Below are positions 28,503 through 32,295 of a stretch of 38,109 nt of DNA, piece by piece. The position numbers and the translations under genes are program-made. The stretch comes from Rhodobacteraceae bacterium HLUCCA12. GTDB lineage: Bacteria; Pseudomonadota; Alphaproteobacteria; Rhodobacterales; Rhodobacteraceae. Within the stretch, counting starts at the first letter, position 1. The number at the start of each line of letters is the position of its first letter. The stretch spans positions 1 through 38,109 of the forward strand of contig LJSV01000022.1 of NCBI GenBank assembly GCA_001314715.1. The letters run 5' to 3'. The notes below the pieces were generated by a model. That model was not told the DNA's origin. It was given only the letters and a program-made list of their open reading frames with translations, and made no database searches.

Positions 28503-28522
28503 CGCGCGGCTCAGGCCGCGCG
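28503..28522. terminator. GC hairpin between convergent SRAP and BKACE genes
   Basis: CGCGCGGC-TCAG-GCCGCGCG is a perfect 8-bp stem with a 4-nt loop, 7 bp after the SRAP stop and overlapping the stop of the BKACE gene. No T-run on either side; a bidirectional terminator-like role is inferred. Confidence 0.45.
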
Positions 28523-29383
28523 TAACGGCCGCCCCAGGATCGCGCGCGCCTGCTGCCATGTCGCGACGGGGCGTTCATGCCTTTCGCACAGATCGACGGT
28601 GCGCCGGACCAGTGCCGCGTTCGACGGAGCCAGCGTGTCGCGATCCAGGCGCACGTTGTCCTCAAGCCCCGTGCGGGTATGGCCGCCGCGCGTGATGCAC
28701 CATTCGTTGACGGTCAACTGGTGCGCCCCGATCCCCGCGCCACACCAGAGCGCGTCGGGCGCAAACCGGTTCAGGGTTTCGATATAGATATCGAAGATGC
28801 GTTCATCGGCGGGCATGGCATTCTTCACACCCATGACGAACTGCACATAGAGCGGGCGGCGCAAGCGGCCGTCACCGGCCATCCGGGCAGCCTGCACGAT
28901 ATGCGACAGATCGAAAGCCTCGATTTCCGGCATGATGTCGTATTTGTGCATTTCTGCCGCCAGCCAATCTACCAGATCCGGCGGATTCTCATAGACGCGT
29001 GTTGGAAAATTGTTACTTCCAACGGTCAGCGACGCCATGTCCGGGCGCAGCGGCAGCATGCCGCCGCGGGCCTGACCGGCCCCCGATCGCCCGCCGGTCG
29101 AGAACTGGAGGATCATGCCGGGGCAATGCTTTTCCAGCCCTTCCTTGAGCCGGGCAAAGCGTTCGGGGTCCGAGGTCGGGTTGCCGGCATCGTCACGCAC
29201 ATGGCAATGCGCGATGCTGGCGCCGGCCTCGAAAGCGGCCTGCGTGCTTTCGATCTGTTCGGCCACCGTGACCGGAACCGCGGGATTGTCAGCCTTGGTG
29301 GGAACCGACCCGGTGATCGCCACGCAGATGATGCAGGGCTTGCGCCGAGGGTCCGGTGCGGGCGATGCTGGTGCGGCGGGCAT
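28511..29383 (-). CDS. beta-keto acid cleavage enzyme (BKACE, DUF849), last gene of the pob/pca operon
   Basis: 290-residue Zn2+-dependent TIM-barrel enzyme of the 3-keto-5-aminohexanoate cleavage (Kce) family. It transfers an acetyl unit between acetyl-CoA and a beta-keto acid, giving acetoacetate and a new acyl-CoA. Seen: ITGSVPTKADNPAVPVT, metal ligands in AHCHVRD, QFSTGGRSG, EIEAFDLSHI, QFVMGVKN, and the closing GGHTRTGLEDN. The start ATG at 29381-29383 has GAGGAG upstream, 9 bp after pcaG. The operon context suggests 3-oxoadipate as substrate (products succinyl-CoA and acetoacetate), which is inference; lysine-fermentation genes are absent. Confidence 0.88.
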   Translation of the reverse strand: MPAAPASPAPDPRRKPCIICVAITGSVPTKADNPAVPVTVAEQIESTQAAFEAGASIAHCHVRDDAGNPTSDPERFARLKEGLEKHCPGMILQFSTGGRSGAGQARGGMLPLRPDMASLTVGSNNFPTRVYENPPDLVDWLAAEMHKYDIMPEIEAFDLSHIVQAARMAGDGRLRRPLYVQFVMGVKNAMPADERIFDIYIETLNRFAPDALWCGAGIGAHQLTVNEWCITRGGHTRTGLEDNVRLDRDTLAPSNAALVRRTVDLCERHERPVATWQQARAILGRPLRAA

Positions 29384-29392
29384 GACGGCTCC

Positions 29393-29992
29393 TCAAAGGT
29401 CCAGAAAGACGGTCTCGCCCTCTCCCTGAAGGCGGATGTCGAACCGGTATAGCCCGTCGCCGGTTTTCTGCGCAATGAGGGTCTGAACCCGGTGGCGCTG
29501 CTCGATCCGCAGCAAAAGCGGATCGCGGCTGTTGTCCTCATCGCTGAAATAGATCCGGGTCTGAAGGCCGATGTTGATGCCCCGCGCCGTGATCCACAGC
29601 GATATGTGCGGCGCCTGCCAGCCGCCGCCCCGCATCGGCACCGCGCCGGGCTTGACCGTGCGCAGGGTGTATTCGCCGCTGTCCCCGTCGGCGGCAAAGC
29701 GGGCAAATCCGTTGACCTTTGGATCGGCCCCCTCCTGCCCCGGAAACCGGCCCTGCGCGTCGGGCTGCCAGCTTTCGATCATGGCGTCGCGCAGCGCCCA
29801 GCCCGTGCCATCGAAAACCGAGCCGGTTATCGTCACGATCTCGCCCTGCGCGCCCTCGTCGATCGCGCGTTTGCCCAGATCCTCGGGATAGATGCCCTCA
29901 AGCCCGGCGAAGGTGGGAATGCAGCCGATATGCACATAGGGCCCGGCGGTTTGCGATGGCGTTTCGGTCAGCGTGTCCAGCTTTTGCACCAT
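29393..29992 (-). CDS. pcaG: protocatechuate 3,4-dioxygenase alpha subunit
   Basis: 199-residue alpha chain of the intradiol dioxygenase that opens protocatechuate to 3-carboxy-cis,cis-muconate. Seen: N-terminal TPSQTAGPYVHIG, the beta-barrel core GSVFDGTGWALRDAMIESWQ, and WQAPHISLWITARGINIGLQ, where the Fe ligands of the beta chain are replaced, as usual in alpha chains. Start ATG at 29990-29992, 1 bp after the pcaH stop, with GAGGGG upstream inside pcaH. Confidence 0.95.
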   Translation of the reverse strand: MVQKLDTLTETPSQTAGPYVHIGCIPTFAGLEGIYPEDLGKRAIDEGAQGEIVTITGSVFDGTGWALRDAMIESWQPDAQGRFPGQEGADPKVNGFARFAADGDSGEYTLRTVKPGAVPMRGGGWQAPHISLWITARGINIGLQTRIYFSDEDNSRDPLLLRIEQRHRVQTLIAQKTGDGLYRFDIRLQGEGETVFLDL

Positions 29993-30722: not shown

Positions 30723-31104
30723 GGCCTTCCTCCTCGTCCATCTCGGCAAAGGTGCGTTTTGCCAGTTTGATCGCATGGTTCGCGCGCGGCACGCCGGCAT
30801 AGATCGCGACATGCTGGAACGCCTCCATGACATCGTGCGGCGTGGCGCCGGTGCGCGCGGTGGCGCGAACATGCATCGGGATCTCGTCGAAATTGCCGGT
30901 CGCGGCCAGCAGCGCCAGCGTCAGCATCGAGCGTTCGCGCAGGCTGATCGCATCCGACGCCCAGACCGTGCCCCAGGCCGATTCGGTGATCAGTTCCTGA
31001 AACGGCGTGTCCAGCGGGTCGCGATTTGCCTCGGCGCGATCGACATGTGCATCGCCCAGAACACGGCGACGGATCTGCATGCCCCTGTCGTATCGTTCGT
31101 TCAT
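30715..31104 (-). CDS. pcaC: 4-carboxymuconolactone decarboxylase
   Basis: 129-residue AhpD-fold decarboxylase turning 4-carboxymuconolactone into 3-oxoadipate enol-lactone. Family marks: MQIRRRVLGDAHVDRA near the N-terminus, FQELITESAWGTVW, ISLRERSMLTLALLAA and the C-terminal QHVAIYAGVPRANHA. Full length as a stand-alone enzyme, not fused to PcaD as in some bacteria. Start at 31104 with GGAGG upstream; second gene of pobA-pcaC-pcaH-pcaG-BKACE. Confidence 0.95.
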   Translation of the reverse strand: MNERYDRGMQIRRRVLGDAHVDRAEANRDPLDTPFQELITESAWGTVWASDAISLRERSMLTLALLAATGNFDEIPMHVRATARTGATPHDVMEAFQHVAIYAGVPRANHAIKLAKRTFAEMDEEEGHD

Positions 31105-31125
31105 CGCCCCCTCCCTGAAACAGGC

Positions 31126-32295
31126 TCAGTATGGCAGACCGGTGTAGTTGCGCGCCATGGTGACTTGCGCGCTTTCCATGGTTTCCAGCTGGCGCAGCTC
31201 GGCTTCCTGGATCTTCTGGTCGAAATCCGACTGATCGGGAAAGCGATGCAGGATCGAGGTCATCCACCAGCTGAACCGCATCGCACCCCAGATCCGTGTC
31301 AGGGCGCGCGTCGAATACTGGTCCAGCGCCGCGGCGTCGGCATCCAGTATCGCCGCGCGCAAGGTCTCGAACAAATAATGCACATCCGAGGCCGCCAGGT
31401 TCAACCCCTTGGCGCCGGTGGGCGGCACGATATGCGCGGCATCGCCGACCAGGAACAACCGGCCCCAGCGCAAGGGCTCGACCACGAAGCTGCGCAGCGG
31501 CGCGATGGATTTCTCGATCGACGGGCCGGTTTGCATGCTGTCGGCCACGGACGCGGGCAGACGGCGGCGCAATTCATCCCAAAAGGCCTGATCCGACCAT
31601 TGTTCGACCGTATCGCTGAGCGGCACCTGGATGTAATAGCGCGACAGCGTCGGGTTGCGCATCGAGGCCAGCGCAAAGCCGCGCGGATGATTGGCATAGA
31701 TCAGTTCGTCGGCGGCGGGCGCGGTGCGCGACAGAACCCCCAGCCAGCCAAAGGGATACACCCGTTCATATTCGGTGCGTTTATCGCCGGGTATCGACTG
31801 CCGGCTGATGCCGTGAAACCCGTCGCATCCGGCGACAAAGTCGCAATCGATGCGGTGCGTCTGGCCGTCCTTTTCATAGCTGACCCAGGGTGCGCCGCCC
31901 TCCAGATCGTGCAGGGCGACGTTGTGGGCCTCATGTATGATCGTGGCGCCCAGTGCATCCTGCGCGGCATAAAGGTCATGCGTCACCTCGGTCTGGCCAT
32001 AGACGGTGACCGACTCGCCCACGCGCGCCTGGAAATCGACGCGGAACATGCCGTTGACGGTGGACAGGTTGCAGCCCTCATGCGCGATGCTCTCGTCGCC
32101 AAGGCGGTCGCCGCAACCGGCGCGGTGCAACAGCTCGACCGCGCCACGCTCCAGAACGCCCGCACGGATGCGCCCCAGCACGTAGTCGCGCGTCTGGCGT
32201 TCCAGCACGACGGTCTCGATGCCGGCGCGCATCAAGAGCTGTGACAGCAACAGTCCCGAAGGACCGCCACCGATGATGGCGACCTGTGTGCGCAT
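31126..32295 (-). CDS. pobA: 4-hydroxybenzoate 3-monooxygenase
   Basis: 389-residue FAD/NADPH aromatic hydroxylase that forms protocatechuate from 4-hydroxybenzoate. Seen: FAD motif [29 protein letters not shown], the DG motif [16 protein letters not shown], and the GD motif [18 protein letters not shown] followed by LNLAASD. Length matches the family (about 390). ATG at 32293-32295 with a GGGGGG purine tract upstream. First gene of the operon and divergent from pobR, its likely activator. Confidence 0.97.

Follow-up and report, generated by a model that had tools for sequence, protein, structure and literature searches.

The pobA-pcaCHG-BKACE operon and its terminal enzyme

The DNA analysed here, contig LJSV01000022.1 of Rhodobacteraceae bacterium HLUCCA12 (38,109 nucleotides; hereafter the window), is the whole of contig C18 of a source genome of 3,725,513 bases in 52 contigs that is 99.92% complete, and it carries on its minus strand a 4-hydroxybenzoate operon whose last gene encodes a BKACE (beta-keto acid cleavage enzyme). 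In the labels used below, C denotes a contig of the source genome (G000), G a survey genome and L a fetched locus. The genes are ordered pobA (4-hydroxybenzoate 3-monooxygenase, 31126..32295), pcaC (4-carboxymuconolactone decarboxylase, 30715..31104), pcaH (29994..30722), pcaG (protocatechuate 3,4-dioxygenase alpha subunit, 29393..29992) and BKACE (28511..29383), and in the open reading frames of the window all five are intact, running from ATG to TGA with no internal stop. The coordinates place 21 bp between pobA and pcaC and confirmed the order and tight spacing described in the first-pass annotation, namely an 8 bp overlap of pcaC and pcaH, 1 bp between pcaH and pcaG and 9 bp between pcaG and BKACE. 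A profile scan placed each of the first four genes above its own NCBIfam equivalog cut-off: pobA with 643.7 bits to TIGR02360 (cut-off 538.7), pcaC with 187.3 bits to TIGR02425 (155.7), pcaH with 330.5 bits to TIGR02422 (296.4) and pcaG with 214.4 bits to TIGR02423 (126.25). The last score was obtained on the translation from a TTG at 30007, which is open as an alternative to the ATG start at 29992.

The terminal gene product (DUF849/COG3246) is a predicted 3-oxoadipate:acetyl-coenzyme A (CoA) acetyltransferase. It matches the model of that name, NF053568, with 491.1 bits, 141 above the cut-off of 350, over model positions 2–271 of 274, and belongs to the BKACE family with 301.8 bits to PF05853 (gathering score 24.8); the PDB entries 3fa5 and 3chv match it with ~497 bits. 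Its score on the Kce model NF052387, 244.5 bits, falls below that cut-off (382), so that it is not a Kce equivalog. The five BKACE paralogues of the source genome (L044, L045, L046, L047 and L048) scored only 164–194 bits on NF053568, and none passes; two are instead above the cut-off of the 3,5-dioxohexanoate model, and the other three pass no equivalog cut-off.

Residue conservation was followed in the best 80 BKACE matches in named genomes, the set also used for the locus counts below. His59, His61, Ser95, Glu155, Arg237 and Asp242 are kept in 80/80 of these relatives and Glu241 in 79/80. In the alignment to 2y7d (Kce) they pair with His46, His48, Ser82, Glu143, Arg226, Asp231 and Glu230 respectively, the metal ligands and catalytic residues of Kce; the seven are thus the presumed catalytic and metal residues of the window enzyme. 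Val27 stands at the position of Kce Glu14, presumably the contact to the substrate amino group. Arg99 is present in 81/81 and Arg129 in 80/81 sequences (the window enzyme and its 80 relatives) and both also in 3fa5, 3chv and 3no5, but neither occurs in the five paralogues; that they bind the distal carboxylate of the substrate is a guess. A pocket of another BKACE substrate class, which the first-pass annotation had named as evidence against its proposal, is not apparent from the sequence. We consider the protein very probably to be a zinc enzyme of the 3-oxoadipate subfamily, predicted to cleave 3-oxoadipate with acetyl-CoA and to provide a parallel route in this genome.

Divergent from the operon, at 32353..33282 on the plus strand, lies an AraC-type regulator gene with HTH_18 and AraC_binding domains. 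We infer a PobR-like role from its position, because its match to the HpaA model (145.6 bits) lies below the cut-off of 274.65.

Lower-pathway genes on other contigs

The first-pass annotation described pcaB, pcaD, pcaIJ and pcaF as missing. They are indeed absent from the window, in that all the matches listed from genome-wide profile searches lie on other contigs, but not from the genome, and the "missing" genes are thus a matter of window size; the description had to be rejected. On contig C14, PcaI (346.2 bits), PcaJ (301.6 bits) and PcaF (674.5 bits, cut-off 597) are encoded consecutively, adjoined by a divergent PcaR/PcaU-type regulator (326.1 bits, cut-off 284.75), all above their cut-offs. 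As the models for PcaI and PcaJ work at subfamily level and match ScoAB too, the naming of this pair rests on the neighbouring PcaF and PcaR. The same stretch (L034, 1963–9053 and 9471–12965) holds a kynureninase gene (TIGR01814, above cut-off) and an apparent amino-acid ATP-binding cassette (ABC) transporter besides pcaR-pcaIJF. The earlier proposal that BKACE replaces both PcaIJ and PcaF had come with the remark that complete pcaIJ and pcaF genes elsewhere would be half of what could overturn it. The complete set on C14 is that half, and replacement is not supported here: the source genome does not lack PcaIJ and PcaF, and since it carries both routes, BKACE is better described as a parallel one.

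PcaD is encoded on contig C8 (325 bits, cut-off 255.85), with a second, PcaD-like protein on C19 below the cut-off (245 bits), and ScoAB on C48, its ScoA matching PDB 3cdk with 332 bits. A PcaB candidate, on C9, scored 342.6 bits, slightly below the cut-off of 355.75. This cut-off is strict for the family, as only 4/120 Rhodobacteraceae genomes pass it. Moreover, 36 pcaH-positive genomes have no PcaB match (E-value up to 1e-70) within 6 kb of that gene; a match is present elsewhere in 34 of them, whereas only 6/45 pcaH-negative genomes have one (Fisher p = 2.6e-14). For these two reasons we retained the C9 protein as a candidate ortholog that is probably the PcaB of the source genome, although it is only 28–41% identical with the PcaB matches at the loci of 29 relatives. 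A separate pcaB locus has been shown by knock-out in Roseovarius nubinhibens (PMC12442348). In L035 (7985–10564) the C9 candidate lies directly 3' of MarR-like and response-regulator-like genes (our own names, not from a family search) with almost no spacing. Such neighbours are odd for a catabolic gene, and this context was not found in the 1.5 kb flanks of the PcaB matches at the 29 other loci. With these genes, there is a candidate for every step of the pathway, at loci dispersed through the source genome.

A second source of 3-oxoadipate appears to be encoded on contig C38. Hydroxyquinol cleavage leads to 3-oxoadipate via maleylacetate reductase. The source genome has three PF00775 (intradiol dioxygenase) matches, pcaH, pcaG and a protein on C38 with 462 bits to 6-chlorohydroxyquinol 1,2-dioxygenase, below the catechol dioxygenase cut-offs, and a maleylacetate reductase (414 bits to PDB 3hl0) is encoded within the 19 kb stretch that also holds this C38 gene. 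As the only PF00775 match outside the pca genes is of the hydroxyquinol type, no catechol 1,2-dioxygenase was found in the source genome by this search and the catechol dioxygenase cut-offs. The C38 cluster (L043, G000:C38:5000-24000) includes, between 5441 and 18432, a flavin adenine dinucleotide monooxygenase, the hydroxyquinol-type dioxygenase, the maleylacetate reductase and apparently two ABC transporter sets.

BKACE and the classical genes across the family

We surveyed one genome per genus from 120 genera of the Rhodobacteraceae, the source genome included, each at least 90% complete. BKACE was above cut-off in 84/120, pcaH in 75/120 and PcaF in 75/120 genomes. BKACE was present in 69/75 pcaH-positive compared with 15/45 pcaH-negative genera (p = 1.3e-11), and in 49 of the 69 genomes with both genes it lies on the same strand within 3 kb of pcaH. 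PcaF hardly tracks pcaH (52/75 compared with 23/45; p = 0.053).

Scores of PcaI/ScoA fell into two groups among the matches listed, 310–366 bits in 15 genomes and at most 261 bits in at least 112/120, with a protein on C17 of the source genome between them (295 bits); the split between PcaI-type and lower-scoring matches was set after this gap had been seen. A CoA-transferase tree was built from all 15 high scorers, 24 chosen low scorers, the source genome's ScoA and the C17 protein. Thirteen high scorers, at least 66% identical with the source genome's PcaI (itself counted), form one group, and those of G061 and G081 (loci L211 and L210), 55–57% identical with it, branch outside; 21/24 low scorers group with the source genome's ScoA at 76% identity or more, and three do not. 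By this division a PcaI-type transferase is present in 13/75 pcaH-positive genera. BKACE without PcaI occurs in 60 of the 75, both in nine, PcaI without BKACE in four and neither in two (Fisher p = 0.007, a significance overstated by treating genera as independent). For most other genera of the family that degrade protocatechuate, these searches found no entry to the lower branch but BKACE. PcaF is absent as well in 21 of the 60, all of which have a lower-scoring PcaI/ScoA-family protein. In the four genera with PcaI alone it is not near pcaH; PcaF lies within 3 kb of PcaI in three of them, and G084 has no PcaF above cut-off.

The two genera with neither, G013 and G054, have two CoA-transferase subunits (PF01144) and pcaF between pcaG and pcaB, a CoA_trans-CoA_trans-pcaF module in the slot of BKACE (L188:1964-4829 and L189:6297-9128 respectively). 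No other genome of the 120 has PcaF on the strand of pcaH and at most 6 kb from it. The best PDB match of the first subunit in G013 is glutaconate CoA-transferase, and no NCBIfam model matched the subunits of either genome at E-values up to 1e-15.

PcaF itself proved to say little about whether a member of the family has the classical route. Only 13/75 PcaF-positive genomes have a PcaI-type transferase, and in seven of eight PcaF neighbourhoods, hand-picked from genomes without one, phenylacetate genes (paaABCDE, or paaI/paaK either alone or with paaZ) lie within ~7 kb, the exception being L190. Family models verified PaaA, PaaZ and PaaK at one or two loci apiece; PaaB–E and PaaI were named by position and the rest by similarity. 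The seven paa clusters imply that PaaJ, too, is matched by the PcaF model, and we rejected the reading of every TIGR02430 match as a protocatechuate PcaF.

Among the loci of the best 80 relatives, pcaH lies in the fetched stretch of 39, and eight of these have the contiguous order pobA-pcaC-pcaH-pcaG-BKACE (L111, L116, L121, L143, L148, L150, L172 and L176); the five genes recur with the divergent AraC gene in L111, L121 and L172, of which two carry the label Pararhodobacter. ScoAB genes follow directly 3' of BKACE in three of the 80 (L122, L137 and L165); scoA of L122 is in two frames, a frameshift or sequencing error, and L165 has no visible pcaH. In the survey, 4/84 genomes have a low-scoring PcaI/ScoA-family match no more than 3 kb from BKACE, and 0/84 a PcaI-type one. 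Of the 41 loci without pcaH, 35 were scanned, six having been dropped where the gene caller, trained on window codons, missed BKACE. An intradiol-dioxygenase-like gene lies no more than five genes from BKACE in seven of the 35, on the BKACE strand in five of them and directly upstream in four, and the one member checked matches PDB hydroxyquinol dioxygenases with 249–283 bits compared with at most 132 to catechol dioxygenases. Relatives of the window BKACE are also encoded in 86 plasmid records, 48 of them from Sulfitobacter, Paracoccus or Phaeobacter, and 37 of 40 listed plasmid records label the gene as a 3-keto-5-aminohexanoate cleavage protein or enzyme.

The proposed route, its alternatives and known systems

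The catalysis, flux, regulation and division of labour that we infer for the BKACE route would be as follows. 3-Oxoadipate made by the operon would be cleaved by BKACE with acetyl-CoA to succinyl-CoA and acetoacetate, the products expected from chemistry known for Kce; ScoAB (C48) would then activate acetoacetate and a thiolase would split the acetoacetyl-CoA, with PcaB (the C9 candidate) and PcaD acting from other loci. The branch had earlier been called shortened, which is apt for its dedicated genes, one compared with three, but not for its balance: ScoAB and a thiolase are still required to process acetoacetate, and overall the result is the classical one. The BKACE route would run beside the PcaR-linked pcaIJF, which may serve 3-oxoadipate from the hydroxyquinol cluster; a division of labour between BKACE for 4-hydroxybenzoate and pcaIJF for hydroxyquinol is put forward as a hypothesis only.

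The first-pass proposal that the enzyme acts on 3-oxoadipate with acetyl-CoA is supported by its NF053568 match, the conservation of the presumed catalytic residues, the co-occurrence with pcaH, the family-wide replacement pattern, the exchange with CoA-transferase/pcaF modules in G013 and G054 and the pathway contexts, namely ScoAB adjacency and hydroxyquinol-type neighbours. As BKACEs are promiscuous (PMC4922564) and the activity here is a prediction, the enzyme might instead act on another beta-keto acid and merely be co-transcribed, but the equivalog match, the exchange with CoA-transferase/thiolase modules and two contexts that share 3-oxoadipate make this very improbable. In its account of the original BKACE survey (Bastard et al. 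2014), PMC4922564 assigns beta-ketoadipate to a G3 subgroup and negatively charged substrates to G4. Rather more serious, if still doubtful, is the possibility that the classical set on C14 serves 4-hydroxybenzoate in the source genome: pcaI, pcaJ and pcaF are complete with a divergent PcaR-type regulator, and PcaD passes its cut-off on C8. Set against this, BKACE lies inside the 4-hydroxybenzoate operon and pcaIJF outside it, and pcaIJF could be serving the hydroxyquinol cluster instead.

Experiments on R. nubinhibens (PMC12442348) bear on the rest of the family. On 4-hydroxybenzoate its pcaF is not induced and loss of pcaF is silent, whereas a double mutant that also lacks the beta-oxidation thiolase ISM_RS10035 reaches a lower final density. 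A CoA-transferase gene designated pcaI, which is not at the pcaF locus, is required for growth, yet its mutant still consumes part of the substrate. The paper attributes these results to beta-oxidation thiolases. Under this model of thiolase crosstalk (Xu et al. 2025), 3-oxoadipyl-CoA is made by PcaIJ, beta-oxidation thiolases replace PcaF and BKACE is irrelevant, which the need for "pcaI", the dispensable pcaF and the density of the double mutant favour; we think it unlikely for the family, where 60/75 pcaH-positive genera have BKACE with no PcaI-type transferase found and seven of the eight PcaF genes examined lie in paa clusters. A BKACE–ScoAB–thiolase route, with a putative BKACE in R. nubinhibens, could explain the knock-outs at least as well and with no crosstalk: loss of scoA would block growth while the aromatic is partly consumed, and loss of pcaF would be silent. 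In the available part of the paper Bastard et al. are cited once, for other fates of beta-ketoadipate, and none of the terms BKACE, cleavage enzyme and acetoacetate is used.

BKACE, ScoAB and thiolase are probably the default lower branch of the family. On balance we favour, with some reserve, the combined reading that the pathway normally ends in BKACE, ScoAB and acetoacetyl-CoA thiolase, that several genes called "pcaIJ" or "pcaF" are ScoAB or PaaJ, and that the crosstalk of R. nubinhibens is the signature of the BKACE route.

A number of observations weigh against the BKACE route as the working one. With pcaR-pcaIJF intact in the source genome, BKACE need not carry flux. A simple anticorrelation of BKACE with PcaF was looked for in the 120 genomes and is absent, PcaF being present in 57/84 genomes with and 18/36 without BKACE (p = 0.099), and the replacement pattern clears only if most PcaF matches are PaaJ, as in the seven of eight hand-picked neighbourhoods. 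BKACE is not beside pcaH in 20 of the 69 genomes that have both. It occurs without pcaH in 15/84 BKACE-positive genomes, and 28 of the 35 scanned loci without pcaH have no intradiol dioxygenase within five genes of it, from which it follows that the enzyme has other uses. Some BKACE-positive genera could also hide a CoA-transferase route, the glutaconate type of G013 and G054 having been searched for in no other genomes. L148 (Limimaricola), the sole PcaI locus among the best 80, has pcaR-pcaIJF ~2.7 kb from BKACE, and in L157 a PcaF-like gene (189–1622 and on), 77% identical with the source genome's PcaF, lies just upstream of BKACE. The BKACE of L157 is at the end of a short contig of a metagenome-assembled genome, and the combination of genes there is unexplained by a simple either-or model. 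Finally, of three acetyl-CoA acetyltransferase genes in wild-type R. nubinhibens on 4-hydroxybenzoate, one was down and two were unchanged, and the increase in the pcaIJ transcripts was no more than 1.24- and 1.64-fold (PMC12442348), which fits the BKACE–ScoAB–thiolase route less neatly.

If the route is correct, the default last step of a textbook pathway is a different one throughout much of a large bacterial family. Current annotation hides it, through the 3-keto-5-aminohexanoate cleavage label on BKACE and the match of PaaJ to the PcaF model. Recognizing BKACE turns a puzzling published knock-out result in R. nubinhibens into a one-gene test, and the design of strains for lignin aromatics would be affected because acetoacetate, rather than 3-oxoadipyl-CoA, becomes the intermediate.

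At the family level we found no difference between the window BKACE and NF053568, whose model name is 3OXCoAcCUPNH, CUPNH presumably standing for Cupriavidus necator. Kce (2y7d) is homologous over the whole length and shares the presumed catalytic residues, but its Glu14 is replaced by Val27 and the window enzyme stays below the Kce cut-off. The BKACE route itself is already proposed in print, in Methylobacterium (PMC8963497 and PMC12379598) and, as a suggestion, for a gene of Ralstonia (Cupriavidus) eutropha H16 (PMC6449761), and the window operon is a further case. What goes beyond it is the genus-level replacement pattern, observed across the surveyed genera, and the link to the R. nubinhibens phenotype; in the open-licence literature we found no paper arguing for the BKACE route in the whole family. 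The Methylobacterium clusters have DUF849/kce after pcaG, as in the window, and no pcaIJF, but they keep pcaB beside DUF849, and whether pcaIJF lie elsewhere is left open (PMC8963497), whereas the source genome does have pcaIJF elsewhere. The megaplasmid of Ruegeria pomeroyi DSS-3 has the same pobA-pcaC-pcaH-pcaG-BKACE order (SPO_RS20005 to SPO_RS19985), with a divergent regulator annotated as PcaQ rather than the AraC type of the window. Compared with classical PcaIJ and PcaF, the BKACE route would have the same net reaction, 3-oxoadipate and CoA giving succinate and acetyl-CoA, but would place CoA transfer after, and not before, carbon–carbon cleavage, with acetoacetate as the intermediate.

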